Of a stretch of 64,000 bases of DNA, positions 25,746-42,389 are shown one piece after another; within the stretch, counting starts at the first letter, position 1, and each line of letters begins with the position of its first letter. Source of the stretch: Woeseiaceae bacterium (GTDB lineage Bacteria; Pseudomonadota; Gammaproteobacteria; Steroidobacterales; Woeseiaceae); contig JAHEFD010000004.1 of assembly GCA_024640345.1 (NCBI GenBank), forward strand, positions 1 through 64,000, given 5' to 3'. The position numbers and the translations under genes were made by a program. The notes under the pieces are model-generated. The model saw only the letters and a list, made by a program, of their open reading frames with translations. It was not told where the DNA came from and searched no databases.

Positions 25746-26819
25746 CTAGCCGGTTACCGGAGTCTTTGCTGGCAGGCTGGCGAGCACAAGGCTGCCGTCG
25801 CGCAATCCACCCTGGCCCGTGACAACGATGCTTTCGCTGCCATCCAGACCACTGAGGACTTCGACGCTTCCATTTTCTTCGATCCCCGTTTCGATCGCTC
25901 GGCGAACCGCCGCTCCATTGTCGACGACATAGACTACGGACTGATTGTCTTCCTGGAGGATTGCGACAGCGGGAATCAGCAGCGCATCAGCGTGTTTTTC
26001 ATAGGCGATTTCAAAGCGCCCAAACATACCGGGGGCAAGCAGGCCGTCGGTATTGTTCACATAGGCGGTAATTCGAAAGGTCCCGTTACGTGCGTCGATT
26101 GTCGGGCTGACGCGCGCGACGGTTGCCTGGAAGGCCATGTCGGGCATAGCGTCCACCCGGACATCGGCAACGATGCCCGAGGTAAATTTGCCGAGTTCTC
26201 TTTGCGGAATGTGGAGGTAGGCAACAAGTTCCGATGTGTCGGTTACGCGAAATGTCGAATTGCCGGCGTTAATCTGCTGGCCAACCTTGATGTCGCGCGC
26301 CGAAATCACGCCCGAAATGGGGGCCCGGATATAGGTGTAGTCGTAGTTCAGCTTTTTGAGTTCGTAATTTGCCTGAAGCGAATCGAGGTCGTACTTCATG
26401 CTGTCGAATGCCGCCGAGCTGACCAGGCCACGGTCGTGAAGATTGATAAAGCGTTCGTACTCGCGATTGGTCTTGTCCAGGTTGGCTTTGGCCTGCTGCA
26501 TTTCGAGACGCAGGCGTTCACCGTCCAGCCGGGCGAGTATCTGGCCTTTTTGAACCTGGTCCCCTTCCTCGACCAGAATTTCTGTAATTTCGCCGGCGAC
26601 ACGAGCCGTAACGGCGGCATCGACATCGGATGCAATGTTGGTTGTCGTTCGGTAGGTGGCGAATATCTCCGCTCTGCGCGGCATTGCGACCTCGACGGGC
26701 AGGGGCGTTGCGACGACGGTTTCATCGGCGTTGGTCTTCGCTTCGCCGATACCACAGCCTGATAAAGACGCGCCAAGTGCGGCGGCAGCTAATGTAATGA
26801 TCAATTTATTGAGAGTCAT
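25746..26819 (-). CDS. RND-type membrane fusion lipoprotein (adaptor 1)
   Basis: A 357-residue adaptor and first gene of the four-gene efflux operon. Start at 26819 (MTLNKLIITLAAAALG) gives a clean lipoprotein signal with lipobox LSGC (Cys about 22). An in-frame ATG at 26858 would sit only a few bases after the predicted transcription start. Domains mirror adaptor 2: VTARVAGEITEILVEEGDQV, coiled hairpin (LEMQQAKANLDKTNREYERF), IRAPISGVISARDIKVGQQ, then barrel. The promoter upstream is overlapped by a 32-bp palindrome. Substrate range of the pump cannot be read. Confidence 0.9.
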   Translation of the reverse strand: MTLNKLIITLAAAALGASLSGCGIGEAKTNADETVVATPLPVEVAMPRRAEIFATYRTTTNIASDVDAAVTARVAGEITEILVEEGDQVQKGQILARLDGERLRLEMQQAKANLDKTNREYERFINLHDRGLVSSAAFDSMKYDLDSLQANYELKKLNYDYTYIRAPISGVISARDIKVGQQINAGNSTFRVTDTSELVAYLHIPQRELGKFTSGIVADVRVDAMPDMAFQATVARVSPTIDARNGTFRITAYVNNTDGLLAPGMFGRFEIAYEKHADALLIPAVAILQEDNQSVVYVVDNGAAVRRAIETGIEENGSVEVLSGLDGSESIVVTGQGGLRDGSLVLASLPAKTPVTG

Positions 26820-26856
26820 TTTCGGTACCAGTTGAATGCCGACATCGTTGTTGGCC

Positions 26857-26888
26857 ATATAGTGTTGTAGTGAAGTATAACACTAGAT
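26857..26888. promoter_or_regulatory. Palindromic operator candidate overlapping the efflux-operon promoter
   Basis: Arms AT-n-TAGTGTT-n-TA (from 26857) and TA-n-AACACTA-n-AT (to 26888) are symmetric about a six-base centre; 11 of 13 positions in each arm pair, with the seven-base core TAGTGTT/AACACTA perfect. It covers the predicted -10 and transcription start of the MFP-MFP-RND-RND operon, a placement expected for a TetR-, MarR- or PadR-type repressor. The binding protein is not identified. Confidence 0.6.
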
Positions 26889-26901
26889 GACTATAACGCA
26901 A
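26874..26901 (-). promoter_or_regulatory. Sigma70-type promoter of the four-gene efflux operon
   Basis: On the minus strand TTGCGT (26901-26896) is followed after 16 bases by TATACT (26879-26874), close to the consensus pair. The predicted start near 26866 is about 47 bases ahead of the adaptor start codon at 26819. The -10 lies inside the palindrome described separately. Confidence 0.6.
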
Positions 26902-27021
26902 CTAAACTTACCTGTTTTCAAAAAAGTACAATAAAAACAGCCTGTTAATTAGATGTGGAGATCGGACATCTGGTCCGGCAGGTAAATATTCGGAAGGTTT
27001 CGCCAACTGAAATGCCTGAAT

Positions 27022-27127
27022 CCCGCGCATCTACTAACTTAGATGCACGGGCAGAGGGTTTGGATTGGACCGGTGGCGAGGTACCGTGAGGACCGGGACC
27101 TGAGTCAGTGAAGAATACTGACCCAGG
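27022..27127 (-). other. Intergenic stretch (26902-27133) with two hairpins
   Basis: This stretch between the two efflux operons holds no gene. CCCGCGCATCT (27022-27032) pairs with AGATGCACGGG (27041-27051) with one mismatch, and CCTGAGTCAGT (27099-27109) with ACTGACCCAGG (27117-27127) with one mismatch. Both lie just downstream of the third RND gene on its strand. Neither is followed by a clear T-run, so they may be mRNA 3'-end stabilisers or Rho-assisted ends rather than intrinsic terminators. Confidence 0.5.
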
Positions 27128-27133
27128 CGGCGA

Positions 27134-30100
27134 TCAGGTGTGCGCGTGCGCGCTCCTGGCACTGCGCTTGTTGCGCCGGGCTGCCAGCCAGTCAGAGCTC
27201 TTGGCGCCAATCATCAGGAGGCTGGGCGTCAGGAACAGGGTCAGCACGGTAGCAAACGCAAGCCCACCGGCAACTGACGAGGACAGCTGGGTCCAGTACT
27301 GGGTCGATGGGGCACCAACGGAAACGTCACGATTGATAAGATCAATATCGATGGCGAAAACCATCGGCATCAATCCGAGAATGGTTGTTACCGTCGTTAG
27401 CAGTACCGGGCGCAAACGAACTGCACAAGTCCGCAGGATTGCCTCCAGTGATTCGGCACCCCGGCTTCGCAAGACATTGTAAGTGTCGATGAAAACGATA
27501 TTGTTATTGACCACTATGCCCGCGAGCGTGATGACGCCAACGCCGCTCATCACCGTACCGAACGGCTTGTTCATGATCAGATGTCCGAGCAGCACGCCGC
27601 CGGTCGAGAATACTACGGCAGTCAGGATCAGGAACGCCTGGAAAAGGCTGTTGAATTGAGTTACCAGGATGATTGCCATCACTGCAATAGCAATCATCAT
27701 CGCCCTGGCCAGGAACTCCTGGGCTTCCATCTGATCTTCACTTCCGCCGCGAAACTGGATGCTGACCGCGGGATCAATATTCAGGAAGCGAAGCTGTGCA
27801 GTCATCTCCTTCACAATATCCGCATCCAGGTATCCCTCTTCGATATCCGCTTCGACTTTCATCGTGCGACGCATGTCGGTCCGCTGAATGGTGCTGACTT
27901 TATTGGCGGCCACTCGCTTTACAAAATTACTGATCGGCACGAGACCGTTAGGCGTCGGAATCCTGAGGTCATCAATTTGTGCAAGATTGCGATAATCGTA
28001 GGGATAGCGAACGCGAATATCGATTTCGTCCTCGGCATCGTCCGGTCGATATTCACCGATCTTGATGCCATTTGTTACGAGCTGAATCATGTTGCCAACA
28101 ATCGTAATATCGGCACCAAATTTCGCCGCCTCTGCCCGATCGACATCGATTTGCCACTCGATTCCGGGCAATGGACGGGTGTCGTCGACGTTGTATACAC
28201 CTTCAACCGATTCCAGCGCTTCCCTGACGTTTGCCGTTGCGCGCGTCAGAATTTCCGGAAACCGGGACGAAAGTTCGATCTGAATCGGTTTGCCCTGTTG
28301 CGGGCCATCCTTCGCTTTAACGGTCTGAATTGAAACCCCGGCCAGGCCTTTCACGCTTTCCCGAACGTCACGCAGAATCTGATCTGCCGGGCGACGCTCG
28401 TCCCACTCGATGAAGTTCAGAGTGATGGACCCGATCTGGTCTTCCGCCGACCCTTGTCCATTGCCACCTGTTTTGGCGTAAACACTTTCGACCTCTTCCA
28501 GGCCCAGAACATAGGTTTCAACCTGTCGGACCAGGAAATCCTTTTCGTCTGTTGACAGGTCGCCTCGCGCCCGGATCTCGATATTGGCGAACTCAGGCTC
28601 AATTTCCGGAAACAACTCGACGCCACGTCCAAACTTCGCGAATGCAAATATGATTGCGATAAGGACCACGCTAACGCCGGCTACATTGCTCCAGGGCGTC
28701 AATAGGGAGCGTTTGAGAAACCGGATGTACGAGCCCGTGAAGCCGGATAATTCATTCAGGTCGCCCGTTTCTGCAACCGTCAGGTCTTTCCGGGCCTTGT
28801 CACTGATTGCGCCGGATGAGCCGAAAAGCGAGCCGAGCGTCGGCACGAATAGCAGCGCCATTAACAGCGACGCTGAAAGAACCGCAATCAGGGTAATGGG
28901 CAGGTACTTCATGAATTCGCCCATTTCATTGGGCCAGAAGGCGAGCGGGATAAAGGCCGCAAGCGTCGTGCACGTGGATGCGATGATCGGCCAGGCCATA
29001 CGCCGAGCAGCGCTCGAATACGCATCATGGCGATCGATGCCTTCGGCCATCCGCCTGTCGGCGAGTTCCGTTACGACGATCGCTCCGTCAACCAGCAAGC
29101 CAACCGCCATGATCAGTGCGAATAACACCATCATGTTGATCGTTATGCCGAACGACGCGATCGTCAGAATGCCCAGCAGGAAGCTGCCCGGGATTGCTAC
29201 TCCAACCAGGCCCGCGGCACGCAGGCCGAGAATTCCGATAATGACGATGAATACCAGCAGCACTGCGGAAATGACGCTGTTTTGCAGGTTCGACAGCATC
29301 CTGTTGACGTCCAGCGATTTATCACGAGAAGCGACAACCTGGATTCCCGGCGGCCAGTTGGCGCTTTCCGCCTCGATCAGTTCTTTCACTTCCTCAACTG
29401 TGCCAATTATGTTTGCACCACTGCGCTGCACGACCTCAATCGCAAGTGCCCTCTCACCGTTCAGCCGGGCGACACTTTCTGCATCCTTGTAGGTCCTGCG
29501 AACTTCGGCAACATCGCGAAAATGGACGATTCGATCACCGACTGCCTTGATCGGCATTTCGAGAATATCCTCGGCAGATTCGAATACGCCGGGGACCTTG
29601 ACCGGGAATCGACCTTCTGTCGTGTGCAAAGCGCCGGCGGCAACCAGCCGGTTGTTGCGATCGACGAGAGAAAGTATCTGGGCCTGGTCCAGGTTGTAAC
29701 TTTCCATTGCACGCGGATCTACGACGACTTCCATTAATTCTTCGCGGACGCCAACCAGCGTTACTTCCAGAACGCCGGTGATTCCTTCGATCTTCTCCTT
29801 GAGATCCCTGGCAATTACATTCAGTGTTCGCTCGGGAACGTCTCCCGCCAGGTTGAGGACCAGCATCGGGTCGAAACGCGAAAACTTGATTTCAGTTACG
29901 GTTGGTTCCTCGGTCTCGCTCGGCAGCTTTGCTTTCGCGGCATCAACTTTTGCCCTCGAATCCTGCAGTGCCAGGTCAACATCCGTGCCGGCATAGAATT
30001 TGATCGTGATATTCGCGCCGCCCTCATAGGCATTGGCCGTGAGTTCCTCGATACCCTCGATGGTTCGAAGCTCCTGCTCCATCGGGCGAATAAGCAGGCG

Positions 30101-30280
30101 TTCAGCGTCTTCGGGCGAGATTCCGTCGTGCGTCATGCTGACGTAGATCATCGGAATGTTGATGTCAGGTTCGGCTTCCTTGGGGACACTGATGTAGGTA
30201 ACCACGCCGGAGATGATGATCACTATAAGCGACATGATGACGGTACGAGACCGTCGCATTGCGGTATCGATAATTCTCAT
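27134..30280 (-). CDS. RND efflux pump inner-membrane subunit (PadR-linked operon)
   Basis: A 1048-residue RND transporter. ATG at 30280 lies 4 bases after the adaptor stop; a longer frame to 30325 lies inside the adaptor gene. Conserved features: TVIMSLIVIIISGVVTYISVPKEAEPDINIPMIYV (TM1 and porter entry), SPEDAERLLIRPMEQELRTIEGIEE, TM4 with GLLVDGAIVVTELADRR carrying the relay Asp, and GIVVNNNIVFIDT near the C-terminus. The PKEAEPDI/D-G pattern marks a subgroup separate from the tandem pumps to its left. It works with the adaptor encoded immediately upstream and an outer-membrane channel not in the window. The C-terminal tail is basic (RRNKRSARSAHAH). Confidence 0.92.
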   Translation of the reverse strand: MRIIDTAMRRSRTVIMSLIVIIISGVVTYISVPKEAEPDINIPMIYVSMTHDGISPEDAERLLIRPMEQELRTIEGIEELTANAYEGGANITIKFYAGTDVDLALQDSRAKVDAAKAKLPSETEEPTVTEIKFSRFDPMLVLNLAGDVPERTLNVIARDLKEKIEGITGVLEVTLVGVREELMEVVVDPRAMESYNLDQAQILSLVDRNNRLVAAGALHTTEGRFPVKVPGVFESAEDILEMPIKAVGDRIVHFRDVAEVRRTYKDAESVARLNGERALAIEVVQRSGANIIGTVEEVKELIEAESANWPPGIQVVASRDKSLDVNRMLSNLQNSVISAVLLVFIVIIGILGLRAAGLVGVAIPGSFLLGILTIASFGITINMMVLFALIMAVGLLVDGAIVVTELADRRMAEGIDRHDAYSSAARRMAWPIIASTCTTLAAFIPLAFWPNEMGEFMKYLPITLIAVLSASLLMALLFVPTLGSLFGSSGAISDKARKDLTVAETGDLNELSGFTGSYIRFLKRSLLTPWSNVAGVSVVLIAIIFAFAKFGRGVELFPEIEPEFANIEIRARGDLSTDEKDFLVRQVETYVLGLEEVESVYAKTGGNGQGSAEDQIGSITLNFIEWDERRPADQILRDVRESVKGLAGVSIQTVKAKDGPQQGKPIQIELSSRFPEILTRATANVREALESVEGVYNVDDTRPLPGIEWQIDVDRAEAAKFGADITIVGNMIQLVTNGIKIGEYRPDDAEDEIDIRVRYPYDYRNLAQIDDLRIPTPNGLVPISNFVKRVAANKVSTIQRTDMRRTMKVEADIEEGYLDADIVKEMTAQLRFLNIDPAVSIQFRGGSEDQMEAQEFLARAMMIAIAVMAIILVTQFNSLFQAFLILTAVVFSTGGVLLGHLIMNKPFGTVMSGVGVITLAGIVVNNNIVFIDTYNVLRSRGAESLEAILRTCAVRLRPVLLTTVTTILGLMPMVFAIDIDLINRDVSVGAPSTQYWTQLSSSVAGGLAFATVLTLFLTPSLLMIGAKSSDWLAARRNKRSARSAHAHT

Positions 30281-30284
30281 CGTA

Positions 30285-31412
30285 CTAGTCCTGTTGTCCG
30301 GACTTGATCGCAACGGCGGTATCAACTTCCACTTCAGTTACGGAGTTGACGACGGCGCCGGCATTTACGAAGCCCTGGCCAACGGTAATGATTGATGCAG
30401 ACTGCGGCAGTCCGGCAATCCAGACACCATCACTAGAAGACATCGCAACATCGGCCCGATGAAATTCGACCTGCCCGAGATCGTTAACAGTCTTGATGCC
30501 GAGATTGCCTTCATCATCAAGTGTCAACAAGGACGGGGAAATTTTATGTGCAAATATCGTCTCCGCGGGAATCATCAGTTCCGCTGTCATTCCGGCCCTG
30601 TAATTTCCAGCACTGTTGTCAACCTCGAGTTCGACAACGAAGGTTCGTGTCGCCTCGTCAGCAACGGGCGCAATGTAGCGAATCACTCCATTGACAATTT
30701 CTCCCGTTGCCAGTTTCGCAGAGGCGAACTCGCCCTTTGTTACGTTGTGGGCGTCAAACTCTGAAATGTTCGCACTGACAACCAGTTTTCTGTCGTCAAC
30801 GAAGGTGGCAATCGGATCCGCTGCTTTTACGTAGTCGCCTATTTCAACGAGGCGTTCCTGCAGGGCTCCGTCGAATGGTGCGCGTATTACCATGTTATCG
30901 ATGTCCAGCTTTGCTCGCGTCAGCTCCACTTTCGCGGTTTCCAGCATCGCAGCAGCTTCCTGTAACTGGGCTTCGGATACGTAGCTCTGGCCCTCGAGTT
31001 TTTCCCTTGCGGCAAATTCGAGCTCCCGCTGTTTAACAGTGGCAACGGCCTGGGACAGCCTCGCTTTTCTCTCCCGTTCATCCAGGCGAACGATGACTTC
31101 GCCGATATTCAGTCGCTCGCCACGTTCTTTGCCAATTGAGACAACACGGCCATCCGTTTCGGCGTTGATCTCGACGACCCGTGCCGGCGCTGTTTTACCG
31201 TTCAGGGTGATTGTCCGTGTAACTTCTTCGGCAGTCTGATTTCTGACGCGAACACTCGTACGCAGCTCTTCGGCAGAGGTTGGCGTCATAGCAGACGGGC
31301 CGGGTTCACTATGCTCATCCAGCCGCCCGCTAAGCAGCCAAATGCCGATTGCGGCAGCGATACCGGCCGAGACCAGCCACGATTTATAACTTTCAAGTTT
31401 GCCCAGGTTCAT
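30285..31412 (-). CDS. RND-type membrane fusion protein of the PadR-linked operon
   Basis: A 375-residue adaptor with an N-terminal transmembrane anchor (about residues 12-28, WLVSAGIAAAIGIWLLSG) and no lipobox, unlike the two adaptors of the neighbouring operon. Domains: VVEINAETDGRVVSIGKERGERL (lipoyl half), coiled hairpin (RKARLSQAVATVKQRELEFA to about 165), VIRAPFDGALQERLVEIGDYV, then barrel domain. It lies 38 bp after padR and 4 bp before its RND gene. The periplasmic adaptor links the pump to the outer membrane. Confidence 0.9.
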   Translation of the reverse strand: MNLGKLESYKSWLVSAGIAAAIGIWLLSGRLDEHSEPGPSAMTPTSAEELRTSVRVRNQTAEEVTRTITLNGKTAPARVVEINAETDGRVVSIGKERGERLNIGEVIVRLDERERKARLSQAVATVKQRELEFAAREKLEGQSYVSEAQLQEAAAMLETAKVELTRAKLDIDNMVIRAPFDGALQERLVEIGDYVKAADPIATFVDDRKLVVSANISEFDAHNVTKGEFASAKLATGEIVNGVIRYIAPVADEATRTFVVELEVDNSAGNYRAGMTAELMIPAETIFAHKISPSLLTLDDEGNLGIKTVNDLGQVEFHRADVAMSSSDGVWIAGLPQSASIITVGQGFVNAGAVVNSVTEVEVDTAVAIKSGQQD

Positions 31413-31450
31413 TTTAATAGCCTTAATTAGAATTCTTTGCGTTCTGTTCG

Positions 31451-32002
31451 TTATCTGCCTGCTGCTGCCCTGATTTTCTCTTCATCAGATTCAGTCAGCA
31501 TGCCGCGGTGTTCTTCGATATATGTCTTCAACGAGGATGCGACAAATTGACCAAAGCCGGCAACGAAGCGAGCCCCGTTCGGCATCGACTGGCATTGTCC
31601 TGTCGGTATGTCATCAAATAGTTTCAGAAATGCGTCGAGTTCCAGAAGTTTGTTATCGATAACTTCGTCGATCTGTTCCGCTGACATCAGGTGGGCAAAA
31701 CACATCATCGCCAGGAACTCGGAACGCACTTTGTGCGTCGGTGACGTATTCGACAGCCCCTTCATCAGTTCCTCGCGACCCTTCTCGGTGATCGTATAAA
31801 CCTTGCGATCCGGTTTGCCTTCCTGGGGAACCTCTTCGAATTCAACCAGCCCGTTGCGCGCGAGTGTGGCGAGCGCCGGGTAGATCGAGCCATAGCCGGC
31901 CGGAAAGAAATGGCCGAACGAGGACTCGAAGCATTTCTTCATGTCGTAGCCGGAGGCAGGGCCGTCCGTCAGCATTCCCAGGCAAACTGTCTTTACATCC
32001 AT
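31451..32002 (-). CDS. PadR-family transcriptional regulator
   Basis: A 183-residue winged-helix regulator. GPASGYDMKKCFESSFGHFFPAGYGSIYPALATLARNGLVE is the PadR DNA-binding domain (residues 14-55), followed by the wing (PDRKVYTITEKGREEL) and a C-terminal helical Vir-type dimerisation region (about 95-183). PadR proteins are usually repressors released by hydrophobic ligands and often control adjacent efflux genes. It is the first gene of a padR-MFP-RND operon, so autoregulation of the pump is expected. Upstream DNA carries candidate operator repeats. Confidence 0.92.
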   Translation of the reverse strand: MDVKTVCLGMLTDGPASGYDMKKCFESSFGHFFPAGYGSIYPALATLARNGLVEFEEVPQEGKPDRKVYTITEKGREELMKGLSNTSPTHKVRSEFLAMMCFAHLMSAEQIDEVIDNKLLELDAFLKLFDDIPTGQCQSMPNGARFVAGFGQFVASSLKTYIEEHRGMLTESDEEKIRAAAGR

Positions 32003-32085: not shown

Positions 32086-32215
32086 GGAGAAATGCAGAAG
32101 ATTTTGGAATAAGTTTAAAAAACAATAAGTTATAGTATTTCTCCTTGCCGGGAATTGCACTGGAACGGCAAAATAACGGGCCAGGAGAGCCCGGGCTCGG
32201 GGGAATACCTGGGAA

Positions 32216-32947
32216 TCAGGGCTTCTGAGCGGTGACCGTGATCATCCCGTCGACGACTGAACGATCCAGGATAAACAGGCCGTTTGCCGTCAGCTGCTCG
32301 TCCAGCCCGGCCGTGTCCAGGCGGAGTTTCAGATAGTCACTTATCTTCATGCGCCATTCGTCACCCTGCTTTTGATGAAGGACATCGTGGACATGAACGA
32401 CGTCGTCCCTGTAATCCAGGAAGCAGGTGAAAATCTGATTTTCGTTGGAGCGAATCGGGATGAATCGGTCCGCCCCCTGGGGCACGTAATCCACATAGTC
32501 GCGAATGGCGTAGATAAATCTGCCGCCGGGCCTGATTGCATCGCAGATCTTGCGGATAAGGATCTGCACAGTCTTCCGGTCAGGCAGGTGGACCAGTGTG
32601 TCACCCATGCAGACGATCAGGTCAGCCTGGCGAGAAAGATGATCGGGGAAATTCAGAACGTCGTCACAGACAGGCTTGACGGACAATCCATCAATGCGCC
32701 CAGCGAGTTCGTCAATCAACGCCTGGCAGAAATCGATAGCAAGTACATCGTAGCCAAGTTCTGCGAGTGGCACCGATTGACATCCAGGCCCGCAGCCAAG
32801 ATCGACCGCACAATTCCCCTGTTCGGGCGCCAGCTTCAGCCTGGCGAAAAGATCGACGTTTTTTCGATACGCCGTTTCGAAGTCCCCAAGGATCCAGGAA
32901 TAGACCTCTCCCAGGAATTTGTCGTAGTGGTCCTTGACGGTCTCCAC
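32216..32947 (-). CDS. Class I SAM-dependent methyltransferase
   Basis: A 243-residue Rossmann methyltransferase. Motif I is CAVDLGCGPGCQSVPLAELG (about 46-65), followed by the acidic VLAIDF, then DLIVCMGDTLVHLPD (motif IV region) and IRPGGRFIYAIRDY (post-motif). The C-terminal part (DYRDDVVHVHDVLHQKQGDEWRMKISDYLKLRL) is a beta-rich extension seen in small-molecule methyltransferases. It follows the FAD oxidoreductase by 20 bp on the same strand and so shares the transcript governed by the c-di-GMP riboswitch. Substrate unknown; coupling suggests it methylates the oxidoreductase product or a related metabolite. Confidence 0.85.
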   Translation of the reverse strand: METVKDHYDKFLGEVYSWILGDFETAYRKNVDLFARLKLAPEQGNCAVDLGCGPGCQSVPLAELGYDVLAIDFCQALIDELAGRIDGLSVKPVCDDVLNFPDHLSRQADLIVCMGDTLVHLPDRKTVQILIRKICDAIRPGGRFIYAIRDYVDYVPQGADRFIPIRSNENQIFTCFLDYRDDVVHVHDVLHQKQGDEWRMKISDYLKLRLDTAGLDEQLTANGLFILDRSVVDGMITVTAQKP

Positions 32948-32967: not shown

Positions 32968-34335
32968 TCAGAGAAAATACTGTGACAGGAATGGATTCAT
33001 CATACGGTTTTCGGGGTCAAATTGCCGACGGATCTTGCGAAAAAAATCAAAGCGACTGCCATAGACCTGCGCCGGGTAGTCGGCAGGAATCTCTCGTGTC
33101 TGGTTGAATAAGGGTGAGCCGCCCCAGTGCCGGGCGAAGTCGCCGAAGTCTATCGCGAAGTCCTCCCAGCCTTTGGCCTGAGTCGAAATGGCGCGCAATG
33201 CAATCATTGGTTCATCGAAGCTTGGCGACAGTAATGCCGACCTGTCGCGCCCGATCCGGAATCCGACGGTAGGCATGTCGCAGCGGAATTTGCTGTTTTC
33301 CTTTATGCGCAGGCAAAAATCCCGATAGGCCTGCACAACGATGGCGAAGTCTGCCGCCGGGAAGAACCAGGTCGAGTAGTGAAGTTTCTTCGCAGCGTCG
33401 TTGGTTTTTGAGCTGCTGGACAAAGCGGTCGAGTTGCTGCCCGAGTTAACGAGTCGGTTATTCACGATGCCCTGGGTCAGTTTGCTGATCTCGTCGATCA
33501 CGCGATAGCGAACGCCGGGCACCGGAACGATGCGGTTGATCGATTTGAAGACGTGGGGGAGTACCGTGCTTTCACCCCAGTCCTTGACCTTCCACGGTAT
33601 GCGATGTGATGCAGTTGTGCCTGTGCCGACCCTGCGAATGTCGAGATAGACCTGATCGCGAAATGGCAGGAGGAAGAATTTCAATCCGACATCAATGCGT
33701 GCGAGTTTCTCCGCAACCGCGCCGAATTGTTCAAACGTGCAACGACGGTGTGTTACCGCGAAAGTCCTGATAGGACGAACCCGCAACTTTATTTCATAGA
33801 TGATTCCTAGCATGCCGAAGCTCATACGAAATGCATGCAGGAGATTTTTCTGGTCATGTCGAATCTCTATCGCCTTGCCGATTGGCGTAATGACGCGGAT
33901 GCTTTCGACTTGCGAGGCGAAAAAGGCGCCATCGTCGCCAAAGGCTGGGCCAATACAGCCACCGGCTACCGCGCCGCCGACTGTGCGGCTCATCAGGTCG
34001 TGTCCACCGCCGAGTTCAAGTCCATGGGTGGCAAGCTCTTGCGCCAGATCGCCGATCCGTACTCCTGGTTGTACTGTCACCGTGTGTCGGTCGGTATCGA
34101 TATTCCGGATCTTGTTGAGTCCCGTCAGGTCGACCAGGGTGCCGGATGGCGACGAGGTGCAGGCTGTGGCTGAGCTGTTCGCTCCCATCGGCCGAAAAGG
34201 CGCGGCGTAGTGTGACTTTGGACCGAGCGCGTTTTTTGCTTCGGCTGTTCTTGCTGGTCGAAGGACTATCGGGCCCTGTGATAACGGAGACTGAAATCTG
34301 CCCGACCGTCGCAGGTGCATTGCGTTACTTGACAT
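32968..34335 (-). CDS. FAD-binding oxidoreductase, aldonolactone-oxidase type
   Basis: A 455-residue flavoenzyme of the vanillyl-alcohol oxidase/aldonolactone oxidase superfamily. ATG at 34335 is preceded by TTGGAG at six bases; the in-frame TTG at 34347 falls in that ribosome site. FAD domain: FRPMGANSSATACTSS, LVDLTGLNKI, VTVQPGVRIGDLAQELATHGLELGGGHDLMSRTVGGAVAGGCIG. The usual histidine that holds FAD covalently is absent (GANSS), so flavin is probably non-covalent. The C-terminus RRQFDPENRMMNPFLSQYFL resembles the aldonolactone-oxidase cap. It likely oxidises a sugar lactone, polyol or alcohol with O2 or another acceptor. A c-di-GMP-I riboswitch lies in its leader. Confidence 0.85.
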   Translation of the reverse strand: MSSNAMHLRRSGRFQSPLSQGPIVLRPARTAEAKNALGPKSHYAAPFRPMGANSSATACTSSPSGTLVDLTGLNKIRNIDTDRHTVTVQPGVRIGDLAQELATHGLELGGGHDLMSRTVGGAVAGGCIGPAFGDDGAFFASQVESIRVITPIGKAIEIRHDQKNLLHAFRMSFGMLGIIYEIKLRVRPIRTFAVTHRRCTFEQFGAVAEKLARIDVGLKFFLLPFRDQVYLDIRRVGTGTTASHRIPWKVKDWGESTVLPHVFKSINRIVPVPGVRYRVIDEISKLTQGIVNNRLVNSGSNSTALSSSSKTNDAAKKLHYSTWFFPAADFAIVVQAYRDFCLRIKENSKFRCDMPTVGFRIGRDRSALLSPSFDEPMIALRAISTQAKGWEDFAIDFGDFARHWGGSPLFNQTREIPADYPAQVYGSRFDFFRKIRRQFDPENRMMNPFLSQYFL

Positions 34336-34348
34336 TGCTGACTCCAAA

Positions 34349-34370
34349 ATCGAATGGGACGAGATTCGAT
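34349..34370 (-). other. Leader hairpin adjacent to ribosome site of FAD oxidoreductase gene
   Basis: On the minus strand ATCGAAT (34370-34364) pairs perfectly with ATTCGAT (34355-34349) around an eight-base loop, followed immediately by TTT and the GGAG ribosome site. The position suggests a role in the riboswitch output (attenuation or shielding of the ribosome site), but the stem is short and AT-rich. Confidence 0.4.
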
Positions 34371-34451
34371 GTTCAAATCAGGACGTTTGTCGTTGCCGGA
34401 GGTCGGGAAGCGAGCGGGCAGAAGGTTGCCTGGCGAATGCCGTTACAGGCC

Positions 34452-34476
34452 GGTAACTGATTTCGTGATTCAGTTA
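34452..34476 (-). other. Hairpin immediately downstream of c-di-GMP aptamer
   Basis: GTAACTGA (34476-34469) pairs with TCAGTTAC (34459-34452) on the minus strand, starting 11 bases past the aptamer's closing strand at 34487. No T-run follows, so it is not an intrinsic terminator by itself. It is likely part of the expression platform. Confidence 0.55.
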
Positions 34477-34481
34477 CTTTG

Positions 34482-34563
34482 GACCTGGCAACCCCGCTGT
34501 CCTAGGTTTCCCCGTAGACCGGTGGCTTTGCGACCCCTTCTTTCGAAGAGTGTGCCTTTATCG
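34482..34563 (-). promoter_or_regulatory. Cyclic-di-GMP-I (GEMM-I) riboswitch aptamer
   Basis: Read on the minus strand, the segment matches the GEMM-I consensus closely: GGCACAC at 34556-34550, a helix closed by a GAAA tetraloop (TTCGAAAGAA), the core GTCGCAAAGCC, then CCGGTCTA, a variable second stem, TAGGACAGCGGGGTTGCC ending at 34487. GGCA at the start pairs with TGCC at the end as P1. The tetraloop and CCGG..CTA receptor needed for tertiary docking are present. It lies 147 bases upstream of the FAD oxidoreductase start and 10 bases after a predicted promoter. Downstream GGCAACC (34430-34424) could pair with aptamer GGTTGCC (34493-34487), giving an alternative anti-P1 helix that ligand binding would prevent. 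Direction of control is not certain. Confidence 0.92.
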
Positions 34564-34572
34564 AACGAGTGC

Positions 34573-34602
34573 ATCGTGGCACAGTAAATTCAGGACTGTC
34601 AA
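34573..34602 (-). promoter_or_regulatory. Promoter upstream of the c-di-GMP riboswitch
   Basis: A perfect -35 TTGACA (34602-34597, minus strand) is followed after 18 bases by the weak -10 CACGAT (34578-34573). The predicted start near 34566 falls just before the aptamer, the arrangement expected for a riboswitch leader. Confidence 0.45.
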
Positions 34603-41368: not shown

Positions 41369-42358
41369 TCAGTGAACTTTGGCGCGGCCAATATAGTTGC
41401 TTTGTGTTCCGAACCAGATCTCTCCGGCGGCTTCAAAATAATGCATGTCACTGATCGACCCGGCACCGCTGGGTATATCGGTTTCAGTCAGGAATGACTC
41501 GGTGGCGGTGTCAAAACCGATCAGTCGATTTGGGTCGCTGCCGGTTTCGACAACCCAAAGGCGGTCATTTTTGTCAACTGTCAGGCCATGGGGTCGGCTG
41601 TCAGGGCCGCCCGGTAAGGCCCACTCCCTGAATTCGCCACGTTGTGGATTGTATCGTCCGATATTGCCCAGTTCGAAGTCTGCATACCAAACCTGGTTAT
41701 CTGACGTCAGGGCAATTCTCCGGAACCGGGAACTCTTGTTTGGCGTCCTTAATTCCGTGACGGACAAGTCCGGGCGATTCACTTGCAACAAGATGTTTTG
41801 CCCCGACGCAACTGCCCAGGGATTACCATTCGAATCCAGCGCAATGCCGTGCGGCCGGATCTTTTTCGTCTGAAGTGGAATAAGGTCAACCTGGCCGGTG
41901 GCGACCTGAAGCCGACCCAGAAAATTGCCTTGTTCTACGGTAAACCAGATGTCGCCTGACGCGTCGAGAGCAATCGACAGCGGGTCTTTGGCTTTCCGGT
42001 CCGGAAGCGGAAATTGTTGAACCCGTCCTGTCGATGGATTCAGCGCACCTATGTGCCGCCGACCATTGCTCGTGAACCAGATATTGCGGTTTGCATCAAT
42101 CGCGAGACTCGTCGGAACCGTGCCCTTATCAAGGTCGTAACGGTTAAATTCGCCGGTTTCCGGAGAGAAATTGCCTACATAACTGCCGCGCTGCCCCACG
42201 AACCAGACTCGCCCGCCGGCATCGACAAAGGCATGACCCGGTTCCGAGTCTGTCCAGGGAACCAGCCATTCGCGAATATCGACGGTGTCCGCGACAGCAT
42301 CAACTGCGGTGCAGAATGAAAACAGCAGCAGGATCACAAAGGTTTTGATTTTCATCAT
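41369..42358 (-). CDS. Secreted Vgb-like beta-propeller protein
   Basis: A 329-residue exported protein with signal (MKIKTFVILLLFSFCTAVDAVA). Start is one of two adjacent ATGs (42358/42355), with GAGAG upstream. About seven propeller blades of the virginiamycin B lyase/streptogramin-lyase type are visible, each ending DIWFT, NIWFT, RVWFV or QVWYAD, with AIDANRN and ALDASGD strands. Vgb proteins linearise streptogramins, but most environmental relatives are of unknown function; the catalytic His/Glu of Vgb cannot be confirmed by eye. It stands alone, convergent with the TonB-C gene and 31 bp downstream of the aldolase gene. Confidence 0.78.
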   Translation of the reverse strand: MMKIKTFVILLLFSFCTAVDAVADTVDIREWLVPWTDSEPGHAFVDAGGRVWFVGQRGSYVGNFSPETGEFNRYDLDKGTVPTSLAIDANRNIWFTSNGRRHIGALNPSTGRVQQFPLPDRKAKDPLSIALDASGDIWFTVEQGNFLGRLQVATGQVDLIPLQTKKIRPHGIALDSNGNPWAVASGQNILLQVNRPDLSVTELRTPNKSSRFRRIALTSDNQVWYADFELGNIGRYNPQRGEFREWALPGGPDSRPHGLTVDKNDRLWVVETGSDPNRLIGFDTATESFLTETDIPSGAGSISDMHYFEAAGEIWFGTQSNYIGRAKVH

Positions 42359-42389
42359 CACACTCTCTGGCCCCCCAGGTTTGCGTAAG

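Follow-up and report, generated by a model that had tools for sequence, protein, structure and literature searches.

In an earlier survey of GEMM riboswitches, most of the genes under riboswitch control had no known function (114 genes; PMC3766115). A 64,000-nucleotide stretch of a Woeseiaceae genome (the entire stretch analyzed, referred to below as the window) poses the question for one gene in particular: does the minus-strand RNA element upstream of a flavoenzyme gene belong to the c-di-GMP-I (GEMM-I) riboswitches, and, if so, does it control that gene, in which direction, and how widely is the arrangement conserved? In agreement with the original prediction, which did not count this enzyme among the established GEMM-I targets, searches of an open-access library returned no report of it as a target of c-di-GMP.

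Identification of the aptamer

A cmscan search of the 64-kb window against Rfam 15 returned a single family match at the gathering level, RF01051 (c-di-GMP-I), located in front of the flavoenzyme gene:

34484 to 34566, minus strand: c-di-GMP-I (GEMM-I) riboswitch aptamer (RF01051; 74.7 bits, gathering score of 35, E value of 7.9e-13)
34562 to 34566, minus strand: 5' strand of P1, GUUCG, pairing with 34487-34483 (in the genus alignment, 48 of 50 cells form the pair)
32968 to 34335, minus strand: gene for an FAD oxidoreductase of 455 aa (Pfam domains FAD_binding_4 and ALO), the predicted riboswitch target

The match covers the full length of the model (positions 1 to 87) and exceeds the gathering score by ∼40 bits, which bears out the prediction of a clear GEMM-I aptamer on the minus strand. 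The anatomy described from the letters alone is found within the covariance model alignment in all its parts, namely, the GAAA-capped stem, the GTCGCAAAGCC core, the receptor side, and the GGGGTTGCC closing strand; the aptamer has the GAAA tetraloop with its receptor and the P2 and P3 helices of the family. Judged by this alignment, the RNA belongs to an already known riboswitch class. The isolated aptamer folds no better than its shuffled versions (z = -0.59), as may happen with RNAs whose fold depends on tertiary contacts. It forms part of the flavoenzyme gene's 5' leader and has the same direction, an arrangement that recurs in relatives. Its distance from the ATG (34335), predicted to be 147 bases, is 148 nt as computed, so that the earlier figure is correct to within one base.

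Conservation of the riboswitch-flavoenzyme pair

Among the homologs of the flavoenzyme in named contigs that retain upstream DNA (51 to 83% identity), 10 of 10 have an Rfam RF01051 match upstream of the gene, at a distance of about 116 to 153 nt. An order-level search with the enzyme as the query against 246 genomes yielded 81 loci with substantial homologs (∼28 to 100% identity). The same riboswitch-gene order, whose search in related genomes had been suggested with the original prediction, was detected, with the aptamer immediately ahead of the gene, at 71 of these 81 loci with E values of 1e-11 or better (plus one spurious weaker match), using a covariance model built from 24 related aptamers, a few of which were drawn from the 81 loci themselves, so that those matches are nonindependent, while the Rfam matches are independent. 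In the genus represented in the window, the aptamer is present in all 10 genomes in which the gene was found.

In the maximum-likelihood tree, the riboswitch accompanies 70 of the 74 proteins of the main clade. Of the remaining four, one (L114) is cut by the contig end, and three (L071, L090, and L107) have upstream DNA but no aptamer and look like cases of riboswitch loss. A second clade, on long branches, includes six proteins of the f10 family with the riboswitch and seven proteins without it, and may reflect either a single origin followed by losses or two separate gains. Outside the order, homologs are rare: one of comparable score was found in a class-level sample of 369 genomes and one more in a phylum-level sample of 398 genomes, and neither locus (L128 and L162) carries an aptamer.

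The orthologs without an aptamer (L071, L090, and L107) would be expected if the riboswitch and the gene were merely chance neighbors or if the aptamer were a functionless relic. However, this explanation is barely credible in view of the 71 of 81 loci, from several families, at which the aptamer is present, the conservation of its ligand-contacting bases while the leader sequence and the downstream genes vary, and the covariation in P1b, where the C13-G36 pair (Rfam columns) changes to U-A (C in 59 and U in 18, with G in 59 and A in 18, of the 77 gene-linked aptamers). The riboswitch and the flavoenzyme form a conserved unit that is old in this lineage. The riboswitch class is a known one, and its apparent target is new and deeply conserved.

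The ligand

The 77 gene-linked aptamers were aligned to a covariance model built in this analysis. All 77 have G, A, and C, respectively, at the positions that we take to be the equivalents of G20, A47, and C92 in the Vc2 numbering, as mapped from the Vc2 sequence. The first of these determines the selectivity among cyclic dinucleotides (PMC9262584), and it is the position involved in the G20A change and the use of cGAMP (PMC6274999). The window aptamer shares the tetraloop and receptor and the c-di-GMP-type contact bases with the RF01051-class riboswitches Vc1 and Vc2 of Vibrio cholerae; unlike that class, with its motility, adhesion, and chitin genes, it precedes a gene for an apparently cytoplasmic flavoenzyme, and many of the gene-linked aptamers have C and U in place of the usual A and A in Rfam columns 15 and 34. 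At these two positions, C is found in 52 and U in 44 of the 77 gene-linked aptamers, respectively, compared to A in 27 and 32 of the 35 comparison aptamers from related genomes, a set that includes two gene-linked members (L031 and L034).

Such a shift from mostly A to mostly C and often U, along with the existence of GEMM-I members that prefer cGAMP (PMC6274999), might indicate that the aptamer senses another cyclic dinucleotide, e.g., 3',3'-cGAMP. This is highly improbable, given the G at the selectivity position in 77 of 77 gene-linked aptamers, and cGAMP specificity was rejected on that ground. The likely ligand of the window aptamer, as suggested by its conserved contact positions, is c-di-GMP, which the source genome, with its 15 GGDEF matches, should be able to make.

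Promoter and transcript start

The original prediction placed a TTGACA promoter just upstream of the aptamer. This element is present at 34602-34597 and is conserved upstream of the homologous aptamers:

34597 to 34602, minus strand: -35 element TTGACA, found again ahead of the aptamer in most Woeseiaceae homologs
34573 to 34578, minus strand: probable -10 element CACGAT, predicted from a TG(T/C)GCAACGAT block conserved across relatives

In the window, the two elements are separated by 18 nt, with CACGAT ending 6 nt short of the Rfam match to the aptamer. Most homologous Woeseiaceae leaders retain the TTGACA-17/18 nt-(A/C)ACGAT arrangement, with AACGAT in most relatives, which makes a transcription start near the P1 strand probable. 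Outside Woeseiaceae, in the upstream flanks of the aptamers of families f6, f10, and f15 (e.g., L099, L112, L117, and L103), recurrent -10-like blocks have the sequences CATAGT, CATATT, and GATATT, which differ from the AACGAT of Woeseiaceae.

Expression platform and direction of control

Between the aptamer and the start codon, the window leader has the following elements:

34487 to 34493, minus strand: GGUUGCC, the aptamer closing strand and the 5' strand of an alternative anti-P1 helix
34432 to 34441, minus strand: small hairpin GGC-AUUC-GCC (all 30 cells form pairs across the 10 genus sequences)
34424 to 34430, minus strand: anti-P1 strand GGCAACC, paired with GGUUGCC in the MFE structure
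34338 to 34381, minus strand: hairpin CUGAUUU...GGAGUCAG, containing the Shine-Dalgarno sequence (local fold of -15.2 kcal/mol)
34342 to 34345, minus strand: Shine-Dalgarno sequence GGAG, 6 nt before the ATG

The GGUUGCC strand has two mutually exclusive partners, the aptamer (P1) and the GGCAACC strand 56 nt downstream, and both pairings are conserved in the genus: six of the seven anti-P1 pairs are present in 9 or 10 of the 10 genus sequences, with one compensatory change (L006). The small hairpin shows a single compensatory change as well, from G-C to A-U in L004, and the consensus helix of the Shine-Dalgarno hairpin is mostly paired across the same 10 sequences. A different Shine-Dalgarno hairpin, formed by GUGUCUUUGG with CCGGAGACA, was identified in a further 24 leaders, where pairs form in 218 of 240 cells (compared to 100 to 121 of 172 to 217 cells in a sliding control). 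In a set of 64 leaders, the accessibility of the Shine-Dalgarno sequence was 0.22, compared to 0.30 in shuffled leaders (Wilcoxon P value of 0.003, which is optimistic because the leaders are related). The hairpins that tend to enclose the Shine-Dalgarno sequence at the end of these leaders favor control at the level of translation.

Alternatively, the long leader could control transcription through Rho-dependent or intrinsic termination, which is how the class I riboswitches of Clostridioides difficile work (PMC6366702). The C-rich, G-poor stretch at 34424-34395, between the anti-P1 strand and the Shine-Dalgarno hairpin of the window leader, and the UUUU after the inner Shine-Dalgarno hairpin would be compatible with such a mechanism. 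However, the window leader yielded no site resembling an intrinsic terminator, many homologous leaders either measure only 53 to 90 nt or lack a separate platform, and the feature that recurs is the hairpin holding the Shine-Dalgarno sequence, all of which makes control by termination quite improbable.

Under the preferred translational model, a sigma-70-type promoter would start the mRNA near the 5' strand of P1, and the leader aptamer, assigned to its class by sequence, would bind c-di-GMP. In the ligand-bound state, the closing strand (...GGGGUUGCC) would be locked into the aptamer; in the ligand-free state, the same strand would be available for pairing with GGCAACC. The resulting P1/anti-P1 switch would be relayed to the Shine-Dalgarno hairpin beside the start codon, and the change in that hairpin would alter the translation of the VAO/PCMH-family flavoenzyme.

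With regard to the direction of this control, at six loci (L063, L074, L075, L078, L081, and L088), the 3' strand of P1 shares bases with GGAG, which there stands seven or eight nt ahead of the start codon; this placement suggests that c-di-GMP represses translation in that subgroup. Relatives are no guide to the direction, because the two class I riboswitches of V. cholerae act in opposite directions (PMC6366702). Forcing the aptamer core, as opposed to leaving it free, caused no consistent change in Shine-Dalgarno accessibility (an increase in 8 and a decrease in 8 of 73 leaders; 0.25 in either state in the window leader), so the relay and its direction are not established by equilibrium folding. 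For the window leader, repression at high c-di-GMP appears to be the most likely outcome, at odds slightly better than even; the flavoenzyme would then be an enzyme of the low-c-di-GMP, motile state.

The same riboswitch with the same target could also serve as an ON switch in the genus of the window, if the ligand frees GGCA from the anti-P1 helix to pair with UGCCUGG, so that the base of the Shine-Dalgarno hairpin opens and translation is allowed. Pairing of CCAGGCA with UGCCUGG is perfect at L005, L008, and L011 and would form at the expense of the closing pairs of the Shine-Dalgarno hairpin, and Vc1, upstream of gbpA in another gammaproteobacterium, is a class I riboswitch with positive action (PMC4744006). 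Still, conservation of this pairing is poor (each of the three outer columns is paired in 3 to 6 of the 10 sequences), the window itself retains only the short CAGG/CCUG core, and the loci in which the Shine-Dalgarno sequence overlaps P1 argue for an OFF switch, so that ON control is unlikely. The CCAGGCA/UGCCUGG helix was dropped as a reliable link element owing to this poor conservation. The preferred reading as a whole, a c-di-GMP-I riboswitch with a translational Shine-Dalgarno switch, likely OFF, acting on the flavoenzyme, is assigned a probability of about 0.5.

The flavoenzyme

The predicted resemblance of the target to aldonolactone oxidases is supported by two Pfam domains, both above their gathering scores (PF01565, 78.2 bits with a cutoff of 26.4; PF04030, 28.1 bits with a cutoff of 23.1). 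In NCBIfam, the protein falls below every cutoff, including those for sugar 1,4-lactone oxidase (TIGR01678, 62.7 of 396.8 bits), bacterial FAD_ox (TIGR01679, 103.9 of 292.25 bits), and the DprE1 equivalog (NF053785, 53.5 of 500 bits). Its AlphaFold2 model (pLDDT of 85.2, pTM of 0.86) has the two-domain VAO/PCMH fold of alditol oxidase (2vfr and 8ot8; Z score of 38.9, root mean square deviation [rmsd] of 2.5, 374 residues) and L-galactono-1,4-lactone dehydrogenase (8qmy; Z score of 37.0, rmsd of 3.0, 403 residues), the nearest solved structures. Over this set of structures, Z scores are 35 to 39 and rmsd values 2.5 to 3.2, with 374 to 408 aligned residues within residues 21 to 455 of the flavoenzyme, but the identity is just 16 to 19%, and the flavoenzyme lacks the flavin-linking histidine. 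The position of that histidine in the PCMH domain, located by sequence alignment, is occupied by S54 in the window protein and by S, T, or Y in each of the 76 tree proteins linked to the riboswitch, and six homologs without the riboswitch have H. The fold is also shared with the decaprenylphosphoryl-beta-D-ribose oxidase DprE1 (Z scores of ∼33 to 35; rmsd of 2.9 over 362 residues at a Z score of 35.0), but no prenyltransferase or DprE2 partner was noticed among the neighbors of the flavoenzyme gene.

The protein would thus represent an undescribed member of the VAO/PCMH fold that fits no named subfamily. Given the fold and the missing flavin-linking histidine, the best guess is an enzyme with noncovalent FAD acting on a sugar-like substrate, probably oxidizing a sugar-like alcohol or lactone. 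The polysaccharide-modifying role that had been proposed amounts to a guess, as the protein fails the curated cutoffs of the sugar-lactone oxidase and DprE1 models.

One GEMM target is thereby pinned to a defined enzyme family that is riboswitch linked across several families of bacteria. Because the riboswitch has been held across these families, the flavoenzyme is likely an important output of c-di-GMP signaling in Woeseiaceae and their kin. Woeseiaceae are largely uncultured, and riboswitch control, which predicts the state in which the enzyme is used, offers a handle for finding its substrate. It may tentatively be proposed that this flavoenzyme family, so far undescribed, belongs to the core metabolic genes under c-di-GMP control in a gammaproteobacterial order, with a dedicated riboswitch that predates the split of the families. 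If so, the enzyme would add a redox step that is new to the c-di-GMP pathways, perhaps one by which a surface or matrix component is made or broken down. Since leader designs differ between lineages, this system also allows the study of expression platform evolution under a fixed aptamer and target.

Neighboring genes

Downstream of the flavoenzyme gene, the window has the following features:

32216 to 32947, minus strand: class I SAM methyltransferase (Pfam Methyltransf_25), which in this genus follows the flavoenzyme as the unit's second gene
32177 to 32193, minus strand: terminator-like hairpin just past the methyltransferase stop codon, weakly supported by its numbers (3 such sites found, compared to 3.5 expected in shuffles)

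As predicted, the methyltransferase open reading frame begins (32947) 20 bp after the end of the flavoenzyme gene (32968), and the hairpin at 32177-32193 is the probable end of the transcription unit. The proposed oxidoreductase-methyltransferase operon did not hold up as a conserved unit: the methyltransferase gene is found beside the flavoenzyme gene only in the genus of the window and a few related genomes, as opposed to the riboswitch-flavoenzyme pair at 71 of 81 loci. The methyltransferase is a local neighbor outside the conserved core and was rejected as a conserved part of the regulon.

Farther downstream, the region 25746-32002 (minus strand) encodes a PadR regulator, an HlyD-type fusion protein, an AcrB-type RND pump, and a second HlyD-type protein. 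The PadR gene and the HlyD/RND pair are found downstream of the flavoenzyme gene in most Woeseiaceae; in other families, its neighbors vary and are often in the opposite orientation. Control of the PadR-HlyD-RND genes by the riboswitch was considered and rejected, as this arrangement is absent outside Woeseiaceae and lies beyond a 213-bp gap with a terminator-like site. Elsewhere in the window, 41369-42361 (minus strand) encodes a probably secreted beta-propeller protein of the virginiamycin B lyase family (Pfam Vgb_lyase, 144 bits).

Other c-di-GMP-I riboswitches in the same and related genomes

The source genome has two RF01051 matches in addition to that in the window. Other targets of the same aptamer class in this and related genomes include Ig/Fn3, beta-helix, and M23 proteins, which are mostly secreted or envelope proteins, in contrast to the apparently cytoplasmic redox enzyme described here, as well as DUF4382 proteins. 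The c-di-GMP-I class leans toward surface functions, and these other targets fit that tendency. A second conserved pairing is that of a LytM/M23 peptidase gene with a c-di-GMP-I riboswitch, mostly ∼122 nt upstream, seen in eight inspected loci (L001, L023, L030, L033, L036, L037, L040, and L043); the M23-linked aptamer of L001 is at G000:C29:8052-8139 (minus strand). The third RF01051 match of the source genome (L003, G000:C17:36140-36255, minus strand, 48.9 bits) has a long P3 insertion and is followed by a gene for an apparently secreted 264-aa protein with no Pfam family. Tandem c-di-GMP-I aptamers in the same direction, about 115 to 160 nt apart, precede a single gene at L015, L018, and L038, and two aptamers ∼900 to 970 nt apart are found at each of L025 and L017.
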